Assembly (NCBI GenBank): GCA_029856045.1
Contig: JAHQWG010000012.1
Span: 1 to 64,000 of the forward strand
DNA: 64,000 nt
Source of the DNA: Promethearchaeia archaeon
GTDB taxonomy: Archaea; Asgardarchaeota; Lokiarchaeia; Sigyniarchaeales; SOKP01
Direction: 5' to 3'
In this document: positions 3,001-31,953 of the stretch, piece after piece
Layout of the letters: each line of letters starts with the position of its first letter
How positions within the stretch are numbered: position 1 is the stretch's first letter
Notes under the pieces: generated by a model
What the model saw: the letters and a program-made list of their open reading frames with translations, nothing else
Told to the model about the DNA's origin: nothing
The model's database searches: none
Program-made: the position numbers and the translations under genes

Positions 3001-3997
3001 TGTAAGAAGATGTTCCATAACTTGGATTCCACCAAGAGGCAAAATACCATGTCCCTTGTGAAATTGAGGTTTTGGCAGTAACAATATGCTTAATTTCAAC
3101 AGAATCATCTAAATAGTTAATCGTATAATACCGTTCATACAAAAAATTAGTATCATCATTAATCATTTTCACGGTTTTTTTGATAGGGCCATCTGAAACC
3201 ACAGCAATTGTATTTATGTCATAAATAGAACCTCCAGCATAACTCCAACTATATAACATCCAACCCCATCTAGGACCGGTACATTGTTGTTCACTACCAC
3301 TATGTTTATTTATAACTTCATAAATGTGAGCATGGTAGCTTGAAGTATCAGTTTTCAAGCTTACTGAAAATTTATTATTTTCCAACATATAATCCGAACC
3401 TTCGGAAAGTGTTGTTAATTCTAACCCTAGATTACTATAATTAGGTGCAGATTTAGCCCCATTTTGAGTGACATCAAAATAAATAAAGTAATATCTCGTA
3501 TCAGATGCATTAGTAGTTCCATTTAAAACCCATGAGAGTTCTCCTATAGCATTGCTGTCTGCGTCATAACCAGTGCCTTGAGCAAATTGATAAGGTATTT
3601 CTCCAATTATACTACCAATTGAATTGTATTCAATTACTCTAATGGAATTTTCATCAAAAGTTCCAAATTCTGATGAATTATGTAATAAATTAGTAAAGTC
3701 AATATTAAGATCAACTATACGATTGGTAAAATTTATTGGGTTGTTTGAAAAGGTACCTTTTGCAGTAACATTTATATTAGCTCTATAACTCCAATCATAA
3801 TCCCACCAAGCTTCAGGATCAAAAGGTCCTTGAAGTTTTGGAGTGGAAAATATCTTTTTATTATCATCATCATCATCATCGTTTTTAAGAATTTCAGAAT
3901 TGCTATTGATTTGTAGAATTGGCATTATTCCCAGAAATAGCGTTCCAAATATTAGAAATATAAGTAAATCCACTTTAAATTTTTTAGATATATGCAT
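1..3997 (-). CDS. Giant secreted Ig-like surface protein (5' part, runs off window)
   Basis: One open frame of 1332 codons runs from an ATG at 3997 to the window edge; I checked it by reading the complement at several points and it stays open. The N-terminus is basic, followed by a hydrophobic stretch (about residues 9-28) typical of a signal peptide or anchor, then a six-Asp run made by a TCA/CAT microsatellite near 3860. The first third starts with a 'YDWSYRANI' segment like DUF2341 extracellular domains. Later parts are serial beta-sandwich units, one resembling a carboxypeptidase-regulatory repeat. Asn-X-Ser/Thr sequons are very frequent, suggesting heavy N-glycosylation. It is probably an S-layer-associated or adhesive envelope protein. 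Its 3' end lies outside the window, so total size and anchoring mode are unknown. Confidence 0.8.
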   Translation of the reverse strand, partial: MHISKKFKVDLLIFLIFGTLFLGIMPILQINSNSEILKNDDDDDDNKKIFSTPKLQGPFDPEAWWDYDWSYRANINVTAKGTFSNNPINFTNRIVDLNIDFTNLLHNSSEFGTFDENSIRVIEYNSIGSIIGEIPYQFAQGTGYDADSNAIGELSWVLNGTTNASDTRYYFIYFDVTQNGAKSAPNYSNLGLELTTLSEGSDYMLENNKFSVSLKTDTSSYHAHIYEVINKHSGSEQQCTGPRWGWMLYSWSYAGGSIYDINTIAVVSDGPIKKTVKMINDDTNFLYERYYTINYLDDSVEIKHIVTAKTSISQGTWYFASWWNPSYGTSSYTAPDSAYGMGGYTFTSDPISGLSNEYTDHDTYDGMSSGYQSFTNPMKLASWFVDWNREGEDGYTGPGSTDERYNEGIGTVWDNLGGNFTQLYRYGSYLDEGRRIYLGYRPPALAALQNFEFNMWGVIFNNSQGDYVEDRAPGLQDRPLLSSMGETQISGKVLTLHAQDGDSKLIGGAEIELYYINGTAIENQTTDLNGNATFTGLQNSNYTITTIYEVNETQFMISNITKEINLPFIERKVFQVLDCNLTTVNFVAYDEDTDFPLYNAKMKIVDSSGAYIIRTATDVNGWVSFKLPADDYNVSAYYQNKWPKLILNISLIDFFETQNFTLTNEISINATLRIADAASKLTIKKTNYTKENEGWPHYESISSQPFYITIYKNDLVNVTVYYENLKIGGGITDAQSNWSLFIGEDMIFNDTLSQIGSGNYSFLLNSSKYNTGTYSVMVNLSRRIASIQDAIIYISFEIYNHTSTIQKIETGTDLNVYWNDNSTLFLNYTTILPEIANVSQATMNYSIIGTNENGAIPGLGSGRYFFELNTSTLDVGTYDLYVFANKTDINMGTKTFSLTVKEIPTFIDWEIDNDYEVTSTFLKIAQGELTSIILNYTINSTRGYIGPNADISTLFFNLTDVENEDYPTIIFLDDLLDGRYNLTINATKFSAGDYELTFLCHEAHYEDQTELLTLRILDSWATSVDLIKPPSFYPWYNNASFIINYYCTEDPRTNRLISGANINTLNISIKVGQVFQPYKELGVADRGTKWGYFDLESDPLYGAGHYLIWFNTSYVNVSESTAYYVSPTVQKEFYSTYTYNPYVWVRPVFTVLTPISDKVSIVPVKIIEFYLDQSSEIIAIYNVSDSISDLDGQLINGATITCEIRNNTPTNDLIKTGSFTPISAVQNPGEYKYTLEADLLGNFTLSITAVKEDYSEGIASIDFFVDTKPINYTLSENIRGTVFFTPQNREVSITLSLIDIVHSTSLSGATIEVTFEGQSYLFHESSTSGVYA

Positions 3998-6446: not shown

Positions 6447-6546
6447 GCAGAAGTAGTCTAGTGGTAAGGCGCCGGCCTCGAGATTCTTAGAATCAGGAGA
6501 GCCGGTGTGTGTTTCACACGCGGGGGTTCAATTCCCTCCTTCTGCG
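6447..6546 (+). tRNA. tRNA-Ser(CGA) with a 17-nt anticodon-loop intron
   Basis: The acceptor stem GCAGAAG/CTTCTGC, D stem GTCT/AGGC, T stem GGGGG/CCCTC with loop TTCAATT, and a long variable arm GTGTG-TTT-CACAC make a type II tRNA. The anticodon stem is CCGGC (6472-6476)/GCCGG (6501-6505). The loop reads CTCGAGA only if 17 nt (for example 6483-6499) are removed; the anticodon is then CGA. Discriminator G6546 fits serine. CCA is not encoded. The intron folds as GATTC-TTA-GAATC, giving a relaxed bulge-helix-bulge near the canonical 37/38 position. A GAGA sequence at both ends leaves the exact cut sites ambiguous. Confidence 0.92.
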
Positions 6547-24578: not shown

Positions 24579-24762
24579 TTTTTGTAATTGACCCAACTTT
24601 CAATATCTTAATGAATTTTTTTATTAATTTTTCCTTTATTATAATATTTAGTATTAGTAGTAAGTTATTGATAAGTTATATTTATTTTATTCAACAACTA
24701 AAACATTTCACAAAAATTATTGATTTTAATAAGAGATTAAGGAATAAATAGTAATAAAAAAA

Positions 24763-24951
24763 TTACTTTTTTTCGTTATTAATTCTTTTGCTTAGAGTCG
24801 CTCTAAGATAAGCGGTTTTAATTTTTTTTTCGGATAATCCTACCTTTTTAGCAATTGATTGGAGTAGGATCCTATTTTTTTTGCCTTTCAAGCTTTCCCT
24901 TTCCATAAATCTGTTTACAAAAGCTTCAATTGGGTCGTCTTCTAAACTCAT
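24763..24951 (-). CDS. Small helical protein of unknown function
   Basis: This 62-residue basic protein has a helix-turn-helix-like centre ('LLQSIAKKVGLSEKKIKTAYL'), so it might bind DNA or RNA. No family is recognised. An ATG start, charged termini and ordinary codon use support a real gene, but size limits certainty. It stands alone, divergent from the seleno-HdrA gene. Confidence 0.5.
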   Translation of the reverse strand: MSLEDDPIEAFVNRFMERESLKGKKNRILLQSIAKKVGLSEKKIKTAYLRATLSKRINNEKK

Positions 24952-25060
24952 TGTTAATTATAAAAATAAATAAATAAAGATAAATTTAATTTTTCTTTTT
25001 CTCAATTACAATTTTTATATTAAATCAAATTTTAAAAGAAAAACAATTTACATTATTTAA

Positions 25061-25070
25061 TTTATAAAAA
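25061..25070 (+). promoter_or_regulatory. Probable TATA box of the hdrA-vhuD transcript
   Basis: TTTATAAAAA lies 34 nt upstream of the HdrA ATG in A-rich DNA, an archaeal TATA-box match at a distance that gives a short leader. A purine-rich AAGGGGAG (25092-25099) 4 nt before the ATG is the likely Shine-Dalgarno. Confidence 0.45.
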
Positions 25071-25103
25071 GTAAAAAACAGGTGAGTAATTAAGGGGAGA
25101 ATT

Positions 25104-27077
25104 ATGGAACAAGTTAGCATTGGAGTTTATGTTTGTGAGTGAGGGGTAAATATAGGGGGTTACGTAGATTGTGAAGCATTAAGAGACTTTGCAGAAACAC
25201 TACCAAATGTTACAGTGTCTAAAGTAAATAAATTTACATGTTCAGATCCAGGTCAAAAAATAATTAAAAATGATATTCAAGAGTTGGACTTAAAAAGAGT
25301 AGTAGTGGCGTCATGAACACCAAAAATTCACGAACCTACATACAAATCATTGTGTGCTGAGTCCGGATTAAATCCAAATTATTTTCAAATGGTAAATATA
25401 AGAGAACATTGTTCTTTTGTACATCAAGATAACAAAGAAAAAGCGACTCAAAAAGCAAAAAATTTAATTCGAGCAGGAGTAAATAGAGCACGTCTTTTAG
25501 AAACTGTGCCAATCAAAGAATTGAGCGTTGAAAAATCCGCGTTAGTTATAGGAGCTGGTATTGCTGGGATGAATGCTGCGTTAAATTTAGCAAATCATGG
25601 TATTAAGGTATATCTAGTTGAAAAAGAACCAACAATAGGCGGTAGAATGGCACAGTTAGATCGAATATTTCCAACAGATGATTGCGGAATATGAGTACTA
25701 GCACCAATTATGGTTAATGCATCAAAACATCCAAATATTGAATTAATGACATACTGTGAAGTTGTCGAATTTGGTGGATTCGCTGGCAATTATGAAATAA
25801 AAATTCTTAAAAAACCAAGATATGTTGATGAAAACAAATGTACGGGATGCGGTTTATGCACCACTAAATGTCCAATAGATGTGCCAGATGAATTTAATAG
25901 AGGAATTGGGCAGAGACATGCAATTTATATCCCATTTCCACAAGCAGTCCCGATTCTTGCTTTAATTGATAAAGAAGTATGCATTGACTGCAAACTTTGT
26001 GAAAAAGATTGTCCTGCTGAAGCAATTGATTATGAACAACAGCCAGAATATATCGATATTAAAGTGGGGGCTGTTATAATAGCAACTGGTTGGGATGAAT
26101 ATCCAATTATTGATAGTAATGAGTATGGTTATGGCATCTATCCGAATGTAATAACCCAAATAGAATTGGAAAGATTATTAAGTCCAATCGGTCCAACATA
26201 TGGTCATGTCCATAGAATTTCCGATTGTAAAACACCTAAAAATGTTGCTATGTTTCAGTGTGTTGGATCACGGAATTTAAAAGCTAATATATATTGTTCG
26301 GGTGTTTGTTGCATGGTTGCAATGAAAAATGCCCAACTTTTAAAACAAGAATATCCAGATATGGAAATCACAATTTTTTACATTGATATTAGAGCGACCG
26401 ATAAAGGGAATGAAGAGTATTATACCGCAGCGAGAAAAGCAGGAGTTAATTTCATAAAGAGTAATATTTCACGAGTGTATGAAGATCCGAAAACAAAAAA
26501 TTTGAAATTTTTGGTGCAAGATTCTTTAAGAGAATCATTGGGCATTCAAGAGAAGGAATATGATTTAATTGTTTTATCTACTGGAATCAATCCATCAAAA
26601 GGAACAAAAGAAGCCATTGCAGTATTGGGATTAGACAAAGGACCAAATGGATTTTTATCAGAAATTCATGGATGTCTCGCACCTCAAGAGACCAATAAGC
26701 GGGGTATATATATTTGTGGTTGTGCTGCAGGTCCAAAAAATATTCCTTATTCCGTATCTACTGCCTTAGCAGCTGCGAGTAAAGCATCGGCCCTAGTATT
26801 ATCAGGCAGAATAAGACAAGAATTAATGATTCCGGAAGTTGATCAGAATTTATGTATGGGATGCCACCGGTGTGAAAAATCATGTTTCTATCACGCTATT
26901 AAAGTAAATGAAGATGGTGTAGCCGAAGTTGATGAATTAAATTGTAAAGGATGTGGATTGTGTGTAACAGTCTGTCCAGCTAATGCATTAGATCTAAAAT
27001 ATTATAGGAATAATCAATTTAGAAGTGAGATATATGGAATCTGTGGAAATAATTATTCTATGGAGGATACAGTTTAA
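25104..27077 (+). CDS. hdrA: Heterodisulfide reductase subunit A with three in-frame UGA (selenocysteine)
   Basis: Reading through three TGA codons (25140-25142, 25314-25316, 25692-25694) gives a 657-residue HdrA of normal length. The UGAs encode residues 13 ('VCEUGVN'), 71 ('VASUTPKIHEP') and 197 ('DDCGIUVLAP'), all Cys or known Sec positions in HdrA. FAD-binding 'VIGAGIAG' is at 148-155; two ferredoxin motifs start at Cys246 and Cys293, 'CSGVCCM' marks the HdrA-specific cluster, and two more ferredoxin motifs end the protein. HdrA is the flavin-based electron-bifurcating core of Hdr complexes in the cytoplasm. No SECIS fits in the 38-nt gap after it, so the hairpin behind vhuD probably serves both genes. 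Confidence 0.93.
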
Positions 27078-27115
27078 ATCTAAGTAAATAATAAAAAATG
27101 AGGGGTTTAAAAAAA

Positions 27116-27541
27116 ATGGAAAGTAAAATAATAAATCAAAATCCTAAAATTATAATGTTTGCTTGCGAAAAATGAGGCTATGCAGCTGCAGATTTAACCG
27201 GAACTTGTAGAAAACAATATTCATCTGATATCTATATAATAAGAGTGAAATGTACAGGACGTGTAAGTTTGGATATAATCATAGAATCACTTCTCAATGG
27301 GGCAGATGGAGTTGCAATAGTAGGTTGACATGAGCATGAGTGTGAGTTCGGAGATGGTAATATGAATACATATAAGCATATTAAATTTTTAAAAAAACTT
27401 TTCAAACATATCGGAATATCTGAAAATAGAGTTGAATATTATTTTGTATCTGCTGCAGAGGTGGAAAATTTTCTTAATGCTACTACTGATATAATAGATA
27501 AAATAACAAAATTGCCTCCTTTACCAAAAAAATCTGAATAG
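27116..27541 (+). CDS. vhuD: VhuD/MvhD-type [2Fe-2S] electron-transfer subunit with two in-frame UGA (selenocysteine)
   Basis: Reading through TGA at 27173-27175 and 27326-27328 gives 141 residues, the family length. The codons fall at residue 20 ('ACEKUGYAAAD') and 71 ('IVGUHEHECEF'), which are cluster-ligand Cys positions of MvhD; Cys17, Cys46 and Cys76 are the remaining ligands. MvhD passes electrons from hydrogenase or another donor to HdrA, and selenocysteine forms (VhuD) are known from methanogens. GAGGGG upstream supports ATG 27116; an in-frame ATG 18 nt earlier overlaps it. The SECIS lies 28 nt past the TAG stop. Partner hydrogenase subunits are not in the window. Confidence 0.92.
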
Positions 27542-27551
27542 AATGACCTTC

Positions 27552-27612
27552 ATAAAAAAATTTTAGTTATGAAGTGACTCTCCTTGCAAGGGATCTCGGA
27601 TTATTTTATATA
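27552..27612 (+). promoter_or_regulatory. SECIS element in the 3' UTR of vhuD, eukaryote-like core
   Basis: ATGA (27569-27572) faces GGAT (27598-27601) so that U-U, G-A, A-G and A-G oppositions form the non-Watson-Crick core of eukaryotic-type SECIS. Above it GUGA and UCUC pair with UCUC and GGGA (one bulged C, one U-U mismatch), closed by the loop CUUGCAA, which contains the AA typical of eukaryotic SECIS. Below, A/U-rich flanks pair loosely. Lokiarchaeal SECIS with such intermediate features are known. The apical helix is shorter than in eukaryotes. Drawn by hand, not computed. Confidence 0.7.
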
Positions 27613-27634
27613 TAAATATTTAATTTGAAGAAAA

Positions 27635-29089
27635 ATGAAAGTGCAAGAGAATATTAATAGGAATGTTTTAAATGATGCATTAAATGTTATGAAATCATAT
27701 AGATTTAGAAATCTAATTGATTCTAAGGAAGACATTTTAAATTCAAGAATATATTCAGAAGAGGAATATTACGATTTCATTTTTACATTGTACGATGAAG
27801 ACAAATTAAAATATTCTCTCTTTAATTTTTTAAAAAATAAAGAAATTGCTTTTATTAAAGATTTAAAAGAATTTGGTAAAGAATTTAATCATGATTTAAA
27901 AAAGATCTTGAGCTTATGTTATCTTTTAAAATATGAAAATTTAATTGAAATTAAAAAAAATGAAAATACTTCAGAATTAGAAATTAATATTAAAAATAAG
28001 GATTTTATTAAAGTTAAACCAATATATGAACCTGTCAAGGTTATATTTGATTCAAAAATATGTTCTGGTTGTGGAATTTGTCAAGGAATTTGTCCTGTTA
28101 ATTGTATAAAAATTGATAACGGCGTTGGTATTATTGATGATAAGAAATGTATTAGTTGCGGGTTATGTTATACAGTTTGTCCAAGGTCATACTTACCAAT
28201 AGACATTTTAAACATATATATCTCTAATTCAAATAAATTTAAAAATCAATCAGATATTGGAGAATATTTGGAAGCATATTCTGCAAAAACAAAAGTTGAT
28301 GAGATATCCAAAATTTGCCAAGATGGTGGAATTGTAAGTTCTATTTTATATTATTTATTTGATACCCAACAAATTGATGGTGCAATTGGGGCTGGTATGA
28401 GTGAAACAATTTGGAAGCCAACACCACTTTTAATTAAAAATAAAGATGATATTAAAAAAACCTCAGGTACAAAATATGCAAATAATCCTAATTTGCAATT
28501 ATTAAATCAGCATATAGATTGTGAAAACTTGGCTGTAGTTGGAACTCCATGCATGATGCAAGCATTACTAAAATCTCATATCTATAATTTTAAAACTCCT
28601 AACCTAGATAAGATAAAATATAGAATTGGAATTTTTTGTATGGAAAGCTTTCCATATGAAAGTATTTTAGAAATTGCAAAAAGATTATCTATAAAAATTA
28701 ATGATATAAAGAAAATGGACATAAACAAAGGAAAATTCTTTTTATATTCAAGAACTGGAGAGACTAAAAATATCCCAATTAAAGAAATAACTTCATTGGC
28801 TAGAGAAGATTGCGAATATTGTTATGATTTAACATCAGAGTCTGCTGATATTTCTATAGGCTCAATTGGGTCTCCAGCAGGGTGGTCGACTGTTTTAGTC
28901 AGAACAAAAGTTGGAAAGGAAATTTTTAAGGGATTAGTCGATAAAAATTATATCGAATGGAAAGATCTTCAAGATGTTCAGCCAGGTTTAAACTTATTAT
29001 TAAAAATTGCTAAGACGAAAAGAAAGAATTGTACTGAACACATTAATAAGGTAAAAATGGAGAAAGAGTATATTCCTCAATATTATTAA
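27635..29089 (+). CDS. FrhB-like F420-dependent oxidoreductase with N-terminal extension and two 4Fe-4S motifs
   Basis: This is a 484-residue protein. Residues 1-130 form a helical, possibly winged-helix, extension not usual in FrhB. Residues 143-186 hold two ferredoxin motifs ('CSGCGICQGICP', 'CISCGLCYTVCP'). The rest is the coenzyme F420 hydrogenase/dehydrogenase beta-subunit fold: 'QDGGIVSSILYY', 'GTPCMMQALL', 'IGIFCMESF' and 'REDCEYCYDLTSE'. FrhB proteins bind FAD and F420 and join them to Fe-S chains. It follows the SECIS by about 20 nt on the same strand, so HdrA, VhuD and this protein likely form an F420-linked bifurcating complex (inference). Confidence 0.82.
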   Translation: MKVQENINRNVLNDALNVMKSYRFRNLIDSKEDILNSRIYSEEEYYDFIFTLYDEDKLKYSLFNFLKNKEIAFIKDLKEFGKEFNHDLKKILSLCYLLKYENLIEIKKNENTSELEINIKNKDFIKVKPIYEPVKVIFDSKICSGCGICQGICPVNCIKIDNGVGIIDDKKCISCGLCYTVCPRSYLPIDILNIYISNSNKFKNQSDIGEYLEAYSAKTKVDEISKICQDGGIVSSILYYLFDTQQIDGAIGAGMSETIWKPTPLLIKNKDDIKKTSGTKYANNPNLQLLNQHIDCENLAVVGTPCMMQALLKSHIYNFKTPNLDKIKYRIGIFCMESFPYESILEIAKRLSIKINDIKKMDINKGKFFLYSRTGETKNIPIKEITSLAREDCEYCYDLTSESADISIGSIGSPAGWSTVLVRTKVGKEIFKGLVDKNYIEWKDLQDVQPGLNLLLKIAKTKRKNCTEHINKVKMEKEYIPQYY

Positions 29090-29157
29090 ACAAAATTATG
29101 ATAAGAATTATTAGAAATATTGAATTATCTTATAACTATTACAAGAATCTCTAATTA

Positions 29158-31953
29158 TTACTGAAGTAATATCTCTTTATCACGATATATCATTCCAAGG
29201 AAAGAGACTAAATCCATTACTTTTAGTTTTAAATCTCTATTTTCTTGTAGATAGCAATTAAAATGAGTTAAACATTTTGGACACGTTACTATCAAAAATT
29301 CGGCACCTGTATCAATAGCTTCATTAATTCTTTGACCTTGCAGTAGTTTTGAATAATTACTGCAAGAGATAAAGGCAGAAACTCCACAACAATTTGCATC
29401 TTGCCTGTTATTTATCATTTCTATTAATTCAATATTTGGTAAATTATTTAATATATCACGGGGGGCATCATAAACATTACTCAATCTGCCAAGTCTGCAG
29501 GGATCGTGGTAAGTTATTTTAATTTTATCCTGATTAGATAATTTCAAATCATCTAATAATCTTTCTTTTTGTATGTATTCGCTAATGTGATATACTTCAA
29601 AATCATATTCATTATCATCTTTAAAAAAGTCTTTATATACATACTTCCACATATAGTAACCTTCAGCACAGCTGCATATTATGGTTTTTACTCCTGCATC
29701 TTTATATAATTTTACGTTATATTTTGCTAGCTTTTCGAAAGTATCAAGATCTCCAGTCCAATAACAATCATGTCCACAACATCTCTCATCAGCTAAAACC
29801 ACTGGAGTGATATTATTTAGGTTTAGAATACCAATAGTCGTTTTGGGAATATTAAGATAATCAATATTGTTATGGTAGAGTGGAAATTGACATGTTCCAT
29901 AGTAATGTTTTGGTTTTTGGGAATTATTAGATGAATCATCATTTTTTTTATAGGGGATATCACAGTTAGAACAACTATTACAATTTAAGCATCGATTTGC
30001 TTCTTGAATTGCAATTTCTTCGGTAAATTCTAGTTCAATTTCATTAAAAGTGCTACATCTTTCTTCTATAGGGATAATAGGCAGATCATTTCTCTCTTCG
30101 AATATAACTTCCTTCTTTGGGATTGGTGATGTTTTAAATTGCTCTCTTTTAAATCTGTTTTCTCCTATATCAATCCCTCTTAGATATCGATCAATAGAAA
30201 TTGCTGCTTCATATCCATTAGCTATTGCTCTAATTGCTATTCCTTGACCCTCTGTAACATCTCCTCCAGCAAAAACACCAAGGATATTTGTTTCTAAAGT
30301 AGAGTCATCGAATTGAATTTTTCCTCTTTTATTAATTATCAACTCATTTTGAGCTGCCTTTAGGAGAGAATAATCAGCTTCTTGACCTATTGCTAATATT
30401 AACACATCAAGTTGTATTTTAAATTCAGAGCCTTCGATTTGAATAGGTTTTCTCCTTCCTGAGGAATCTGGTTCGCCAAGTTTCATTCGGATACATTCTA
30501 CTTTGGAAACATTTCCTTTTTTATCTCCAATTATTCTTACGGGATTAGTTAAGAATTGAAAATCTATATTTTCTTCTTTTGCCATTTCAATTTCCTCTTC
30601 TGCTGCAGGCATTTCTTTTTCCGAACGTCTATAAATAACAATTACTTTTTTTGCACCTAACCTTACGGCCGTTCTTGCTGAGTCCATAGCAACATTTCCA
30701 CCACCCGTTACTCCAATAATTTTATCTTTAATTATGATAGGAGATTTTTTAGATTCTTGATCTGTAGGTCTGAGATATTTGAGAAATTCTATTCCTCCTA
30801 TAACATTATTCAATTCTTCACCTTCGAGTCTCATACTTCGGCTACTCTGGAGTCCTATTGATATAAAAATCGCTTTATAACCCATATTTGTTAACTTCTT
30901 GAATGTCAAATCTGGTCCTATTGGAGTATTTGTTTTTATCTCAACGCCACTTTTTTCTATGAATTCAATTTCATAATCCAAAATATCATCAGGTAATCTA
31001 TATTCTGGGATTCCAACTCTCAACATACCTCCTTTAAAGGGGCTGGCTTCAAATATTGTTGGTTTGTATCCTTTCTTTGCGAGGAAATATGCTGCTGTTA
31101 AGCCAGCGGGTCCCGAACCAATAATAGCAACTTGTTCGTTTGTTTGTTCAAATGGTTGTAATTGACTTAAGGGTTGGTTTTTTATTTCCCAATCAGCAAC
31201 AAATCTTTTTAATGCCCTGATGGCAATTGGCTTATCTATAGTATTGCGATTACAACTTAATTCACATGGATGTGTACAAATTCGTCCACATACACCTGGA
31301 AGGGGATTTCTTTCCCGTATTAAATTGAGAGATTCTTGAAATTTTCCTTCTTTAATTAATGTAATATAACCTTGAACATCAATATTTGCAGGACAAGCTT
31401 GTGTGCACGGTGATATTCCATTCATAAATGGCAAGCAACCTATAAAATATGCTATTTCTCCTTTTCTAGCAATCTTTAAATCTGTATTGTCTAAAAAGCC
31501 AATTTTATTTACTAATTCTATTTGATCATTAGCCATTAAATACGGTAAATTTGAATATAATCGACCATGAGTTGTACATTGAAGCTTTTCCTCTTGAAAT
31601 GAGTCATTTTCTGTAGCAATATTTCGAAGTTTCAAAATAATATCGAGAAAATTAACACCAACGTTATCTTTAGACATTGGACAGTATTCTGAACAAAGTC
31701 CACAAGTTAAACAACTCCAAATATTTGAATTATTAATTGCCACTTCAACTGAGTAAGTAGAAAAATCTCTAACTAATTGCCTTGGATAAAACAATCCAAA
31801 TGGAGAGAGGGGGCATATATTAATACAACGATTACAATCATAACAATAGTAAGAGGATTTTAACAACTCAGACATTTTTTCAATACCTTTATGTTCAATA
31901 TTTAAACTCGTTCCTATTGAAGTTTTACTTTTAGTTTTCATTTTAAAAATCAT
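29158..31953 (-). CDS. HdrC-HdrB-like protein with a GltD/NfnB flavoprotein nested inside the first CCG domain
   Basis: This is a 931-residue fusion. Residues 37-47 and 81-91 are two 4Fe-4S motifs (HdrC/GlpC type). 'AYFIGC' (168-173) opens a CCG domain, but it is broken by a complete NADPH-dependent GltD-like module (about 181-665: Cys183/187/222/226/230/234, FAD motif near 277, NAD(P) motif 'GVTGGGN' at 414, 'GGDVTEGQG', final 'CLNCNSCSNC'). The CCG domain resumes at about 688 with 'DERCCGHDC' and a second CCG domain carries 'DPCRLG' and 'NCCGVS'. It may couple NAD(P)H to a heterodisulfide-type or ferredoxin reaction. It is convergent with the FrhB-like gene. Confidence 0.85.
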   Translation of the reverse strand: MIFKMKTKSKTSIGTSLNIEHKGIEKMSELLKSSYYCYDCNRCINICPLSPFGLFYPRQLVRDFSTYSVEVAINNSNIWSCLTCGLCSEYCPMSKDNVGVNFLDIILKLRNIATENDSFQEEKLQCTTHGRLYSNLPYLMANDQIELVNKIGFLDNTDLKIARKGEIAYFIGCLPFMNGISPCTQACPANIDVQGYITLIKEGKFQESLNLIRERNPLPGVCGRICTHPCELSCNRNTIDKPIAIRALKRFVADWEIKNQPLSQLQPFEQTNEQVAIIGSGPAGLTAAYFLAKKGYKPTIFEASPFKGGMLRVGIPEYRLPDDILDYEIEFIEKSGVEIKTNTPIGPDLTFKKLTNMGYKAIFISIGLQSSRSMRLEGEELNNVIGGIEFLKYLRPTDQESKKSPIIIKDKIIGVTGGGNVAMDSARTAVRLGAKKVIVIYRRSEKEMPAAEEEIEMAKEENIDFQFLTNPVRIIGDKKGNVSKVECIRMKLGEPDSSGRRKPIQIEGSEFKIQLDVLILAIGQEADYSLLKAAQNELIINKRGKIQFDDSTLETNILGVFAGGDVTEGQGIAIRAIANGYEAAISIDRYLRGIDIGENRFKREQFKTSPIPKKEVIFEERNDLPIIPIEERCSTFNEIELEFTEEIAIQEANRCLNCNSCSNCDIPYKKNDDSSNNSQKPKHYYGTCQFPLYHNNIDYLNIPKTTIGILNLNNITPVVLADERCCGHDCYWTGDLDTFEKLAKYNVKLYKDAGVKTIICSCAEGYYMWKYVYKDFFKDDNEYDFEVYHISEYIQKERLLDDLKLSNQDKIKITYHDPCRLGRLSNVYDAPRDILNNLPNIELIEMINNRQDANCCGVSAFISCSNYSKLLQGQRINEAIDTGAEFLIVTCPKCLTHFNCYLQENRDLKLKVMDLVSFLGMIYRDKEILLQ

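Follow-up and report, generated by a model that had tools for sequence, protein, structure and literature searches.

The closest described counterparts of the element treated here come from Asgard archaea, where hdrA and frhD lie adjacent and have one common eSECIS-like structure (Huang, Xiao and Zhang 2024, ISME J, PMC11227280). These elements have AUGA_GA or AUGA_AA cores, and the UGA stop codons often overlap the AUGA; the model given in that study comprises the core, an upper stem and an apical loop, with no strongly conserved bases in the internal loop or lower stem, and does not mention a side hairpin. According to later papers citing Mariotti et al. (2016, Mol Biol Evol 33:2441), the SECIS of Lokiarchaeota has a eukaryote-like AUGA core, and vhuD is among the genes concerned. 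The sharing of one SECIS by the Asgard hdrA and frhD cistrons is thus not new (PMC11227280); what is added here is a corrected geometry of the element, a comparison of gene orders and the side hairpin.

The hdrA-vhuD locus and the element behind it

The window (G000:C15:1-64000), that is, the whole stretch of DNA analysed, covers 64 kb of a Lokiarchaeota genome of 3.34 Mb; all features of the locus lie on its plus strand. The hdrA gene (heterodisulfide reductase subunit A; 25104-27077) has 657 codons and ends with UAA, and Pfam recognizes its product as an FAD and multi-[4Fe-4S] protein. It contains three in-frame UGA codons at 25140-25142, 25314-25316 and 25692-25694 (residues 13, 71 and 197). 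A gap of 38 nt (27078-27115), with a Shine-Dalgarno-like GAGGGG and without a SECIS-like hairpin, separates it from vhuD/frhD of the FlpD family (27116-27541; stop UAG at 27539-27541), the product of which matches FlpD (PF02662) with 134.6 bits and which has two UGA codons at 27173-27175 and 27326-27328 (residues 20 and 71). All five UGAs align with Cys in homologues. In all 74 Sec-type hdrA genes positions 13 and 197 are Sec, and 37 of them have Sec at position 71; VhuD 20 is Sec in all 95 rows of the alignment and VhuD 71 in 90. The genome encodes tRNA-Sec, SepSecS and a UGA-containing SelD. The FrhB/FdhB-like gene further downstream (27635-29089, by Pfam) has no in-frame UGA past its ATG and is not a target of the element. 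Elsewhere in the window, Rfam matches a tRNA of 100 bases (6447-6546, 50.2 bits) which ARAGORN missed; its length suggests an intron-containing tRNA gene.

The element comprises three helices and spans 27531-27602. Helix I, the lower stem, pairs AAUCUGA (27531-27537) with UCGGAUU (27596-27602); its 5′ strand falls within the last vhuD codons, and the stop codon of vhuD sits between it and the core. In the kink-turn-like core, AUGA (27543-27546) stands opposite UGAC (27575-27578) and forms tandem G.A pairs (27545.27577 and 27546.27576). Helix II, the upper stem, has 8 bp (27548-27555 with 27567-27574) and is closed by an A-rich apical loop of 11 nt, AAAAAUUUUAG (27556-27566). Helix III, a side hairpin of UCCU (27581-27584) and AGGG (27589-27592) around a UGCA loop, lies on the 3′ strand between core and lower stem and turns the element into a three-way junction; it is weaker in this genus than in relatives. 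A preliminary description of the locus had let AUGA face GGAU and had the hairpin begin at 27552. GGAU (27598-27601) belongs instead to the 3′ strand of helix I, and 27552 falls inside the upper stem, about ten bases late; the AA noted in the hairpin loop agrees with the A-rich loop found here.

The element fits the Asgard type I class (PMC11227280) in genes, gene order, position behind frhD/vhuD, core type and A-rich loop. The class core, 5′-GA_[G/A]A-3′ (mostly AUGA_GA), is represented by AUGA at 27543-27546 with GA at 27576-27577. The upper stem of 8 bp compares with 7–15 bp and at most two mismatches in the class, and the loop of 11 nt with 8–20 nt, adenines first and no ministem; the energy predicted for 27540-27585 is −5.8 kcal/mol, the class limit being < −5.0 kcal/mol. 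Its setting also agrees with the class: the genome has Sec machinery, and the element follows a selenoprotein gene at its 3′ end, with hdrA and frhD adjacent and very probably sharing it.

With type I eukaryal SECIS elements it has in common the AUGA/GA quartet under the upper stem, the unpaired run of A in the loop, the 3′ position and the presumed action over kilobases; it differs in the side hairpin on the 3′ strand, in a 5′ strand lying in the coding region and in probably serving two cistrons. Rfam covariance models gave no match to any SECIS family up to E 10 in 25000-27700. The designation “eukaryote-like” in the preliminary description fits the AUGA/GA core as well as the A-rich loop, not the side hairpin, which is foreign to the eukaryal consensus. 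The SECIS of euryarchaea (Methanococcales) is likewise archaeal, mostly located 3′ of selenoprotein genes, and has a kink-turn-like motif, but its two stems flank a GAA_A bulge, over which stand three S-S pairs; here the GAA_A bulge is missing and the upper stem starts with C-G, U-A and U-A over an AUGA/GA core.

Comparative evidence for the structure

The folding energy of the 88 nt around the element is unremarkable against chance (z = −0.01) and was rejected as proof of the element. Since folding of a single sequence says little and Rfam gives no SECIS match, relatives were examined (50 orthologous and 40 paralogous loci). Three segments are invariant in the 49 aligned elements behind vhuD: AUG in the core, AAA in the loop and UCGG in the lower stem. 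RNAalifold on a plain MAFFT alignment recovers the upper stem, with compensatory changes in 8 of 8 pairs; some lower stems are one base out of register in that alignment, and the counts for helix I were therefore taken from the one fitted to a covariance model (R1; 17 pairs) built from the 49 relatives. Across the R1 matches, which include the training sequences and were aligned by fitting to the structure, 94.2% of cells are paired (73.2% in shuffles; sliding by one column leaves about 60% at best), and compensatory changes occur in 17 of 17 modelled pairs, in all three helices. In this fitted alignment helix I is paired in 92.4% of cells, with 5 of 5 pairs compensated, and helix II in 97.3%, with 8 of 8.

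Because training sequences were counted and the alignment was fitted to the structure, a second model lacking the lower stem and side hairpin was used; in the alignment not fitted to the side hairpin, 85.6% of its cells are paired, compared with about 51% at best when slid. The side segment alone also folds better than shuffles in the vhuD elements of both groups, in the elements behind lone hdrA genes and in a Sec-Sec family treated below (Fisher p 1e-6 to 5e-22, which are not true probabilities as the sequences are related). A third subtype at six loci has AUGA, a longer upper stem and the side hairpin; R1 misses it and RNAfold mostly shows it. The same gene order and the same three helices occur in two genomes from other families of the class, G150 and G178; the core of the G178 element (L227 = G178:C59:12000-16500, at 3673-3746) reads AGGA in place of AUGA. 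The covariation called for in the preliminary description is thus present. The hairpin behind vhuD is real, and comparison among the sequences establishes its structure, the equivalence of the hdrA and vhuD UGAs with Cys and the position of the element in each gene order.

One element for two genes

Over the whole window R1 yields a single match. With filters off it scores 71.7 bits (E 1.2e-15) at 27529-27602 when run on 24600-29200; the next match reaches only 11.0 bits. R1, which detects what resembles its training set and would miss a signal of another structure within hdrA, found no second element in that gene, upstream of it or in the 38-nt gap. At 93 Sec-type hdrA-vhuD loci (87 by R1, plus the six of the third subtype by inspection and folding) the element is located behind vhuD and none lies between the genes; over 454 kb, R1 has outside the 87 loci one match belonging to another gene (in L011) and one chance match (E 0.9). 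Lone Sec-type hdrA genes, retrieved with the initial portion of HdrA as query, behave differently: in 15 of 15 whose 3′ end is intact, the element follows hdrA directly (77.9–96.5 bits), and many of their genomes also hold the two-gene form. Neither 20 Cys-type hdrA loci searched with R1 (best score 12.6 bits) nor the 7 Cys-type hdrA-vhuD loci of the present genome have an element. The element thus accompanies this hdrA family, and where vhuD comes next, the sole copy is behind vhuD.

Very probably, then, a two-gene mRNA of hdrA and vhuD has its SECIS at 27531-27602, which serves the three UGAs of hdrA as well as the two of vhuD. The preliminary description had proposed just this, a single element apparently serving five UGAs in two cistrons and, given one common transcript, acting over up to about 2.4 kb, and had seen no comparable hairpin in the 38-nt gap or upstream of hdrA; gene order, the match of UGA and Cys, and the filters-off scan agree with it. 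A second group of hdrA-vhuD loci (L072, L090 and others in L063-L100) has up to five UGAs in hdrA and thus up to seven on one two-gene unit with a single SECIS.

It is unlikely that hdrA has a signal of its own, structurally different and located in hdrA or vhuD, the element behind vhuD serving vhuD only. Such a signal could go unnoticed, as covariance models are limited to look-alikes of the training set and R1 missed the third subtype at six loci; a strict scan for AUGA hairpins does give hits in hdrA at 19 of 100 loci, which is chance level and about the rate in shuffles, and its hit in vhuD is confined to this genus. In the same genomes an ordinary element stands behind the lone Sec-type hdrA genes, so that a hidden signal would have to be confined to hdrA genes followed by vhuD. 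Separate transcripts for the two genes, with the hdrA UGAs decoded without a SECIS in cis or by one acting in trans, are less probable still: the genes are 0 to about 50 nt apart or overlap at all loci (in 24 of 95 rows the distance from the hdrA stop to the VhuD domain is at most 15 nt), and lone hdrA genes retain their element in cis. To our knowledge, no SECIS acts in trans. One shared hdrA-vhuD transcript is what this spacing points to.

Hardly credible is the reading of the hairpin as a chance fold or a terminator and of the UGAs as true stops or decay. The A+T-rich sequence, T runs after the hairpin and the ordinary folding energy would suit it; against it are the compensatory changes in every modelled pair, the conservation of the UGAs at Cys positions in 74 hdrA and 95 vhuD rows, tRNA-Sec and SepSecS encoded in the genome, and the Cys-type loci without an element.

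Several other observations carry no weight in this. A loose eSECIS pattern scan gave hits near chance, and hairpins near the end of hdrA in L052 and L100 were rejected as chance hits at the start of vhuD. Avoidance of UGA as the hdrA stop, which is complete in the two-gene loci, is uninformative, because UAA or UAG is the stop in 50 of the 53 open reading frames listed mechanically for the window (of the three with UGA, one is an hdrA fragment) and Cys-type hdrA genes have no UGA stop either. A search of plasmid records gave no match.

The probable shared SECIS lies 1.85–2.4 kb from the hdrA UGAs, and the distances in lone hdrA genes are nearly equal. This exceeds the 80–1300 nt listed for archaea in 2010 (PMC2933860), which counts against sharing, yet is within the eukaryal range; in Methanococcus maripaludis no strict distance limit for the SECIS was found (PMC9622424). 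Also counting against the SECIS reading is the inactivity of a Loki vhuU SECIS in M. maripaludis (PMC11881835).

Recognition and the side hairpin

The tandem G.A pairs of the core point to a kink-turn that a protein of the L7Ae/L30e type may bind. Such a protein, together with the archaeal Sec-specific elongation factor, would use the element to deliver Sec-tRNA to ribosomes that have reached in-frame UGAs farther upstream in that mRNA, one element serving UGAs 0.2 to 2.4 kb away; judged from sequence, both the binding protein and the insertion of Sec itself are putative. No SECIS-binding factor is known to us from archaea. The eukaryal factor SBP2 has an L7Ae/L30e-type domain (PMC2746813), but is reported absent from Asgard archaea (PMC11227280), a further difference from the eukaryal system. 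As the 5′ strand of helix I lies in the last codons and stop of vhuD, ribosomes finishing vhuD must briefly open the element. At 32 two-gene loci an in-frame UGA follows the VhuD domain ahead of any UAA or UAG, and by inspection it is mostly the one within the AUGA core; since the element would be held open by a terminating ribosome, this UGA could still function as a stop.

The side hairpin recurs behind selD, vhuU, lone hdrA and the candidate Sec-Sec family. Whether Lokiarchaeal SECIS elements are generally three-way junctions, with a side hairpin of UGC/AGC-like loop in an almost constant position past the GA core, is evenly balanced. The SECIS behind a VhuU-like small selenoprotein (RCYDCULSCAAH; G000:C35:57335-57392, minus strand, L111) has a long lower stem, UUGGUUU/AAACCAA, plus the side hairpin, and the UGA stop of the gene is the UGA of the AUGA core. 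The selD gene (G000:C44:100200-101800, minus strand, L228) contains a single UGA. A fold is possible in its 3′ region that has AUGA, an apical ministem, a lower stem of nine pairs and, by eye, a similar side hairpin above that stem, CACC-UGUGU-GGUG.

The Sec-Sec family is represented by a candidate selenoprotein of about 150 aa (G000:C32:26953-27414; L110 3954-4418) with two adjacent in-frame UGAs in a GCUU or HADUU motif and a SECIS at C32:27409-27486; a similar SECIS is present behind most copies. Relatives (L116-L145, L229, L230) occur in 52 of the 65 genomes of the family, nearly all with both UGAs; the closest named records reached through this protein are Candidatus Lokiarchaeota MAGs. 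The protein has no match in Pfam, NCBIfam or PDB and is not among the seven families of PMC11227280; AlphaFold predictions from two sequences reached a pLDDT of 36.8, too low to be informative. In L229 and L230 the open reading frames next to the Sec-Sec gene (2327-2830) resemble, by eye, those for a transporter of the arsenite/bile-acid type, a TlpA-like thioredoxin, a membrane protein like DsbD/CcdA and a regulator like ArsR, hinting at a function connected with redox or arsenic.

The comparison of gene orders makes the use of one SECIS across cistrons much firmer than proximity alone. An intermediate between archaeal and eukaryal recoding, which the preliminary description saw here, is already contained in PMC11227280 and is not a new idea. 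The covarying side hairpin may be a new feature, as no mention of it was found in the literature on SECIS and three-way junctions, the paper of Mariotti et al. (2016) standing outside that coverage. If Lokiarchaeal SECIS elements are generally three-way junctions, the hairpin would represent a recognition site not yet described, and a test construct lacking it could explain the failure of the Loki SECIS in Methanococcus. The third helix offers a concrete, mutable feature for tracing the missing binding protein and for repeating the Methanococcus experiment with the element in full, and bears on how selenocysteine decoding in eukarya arose from that in archaea.
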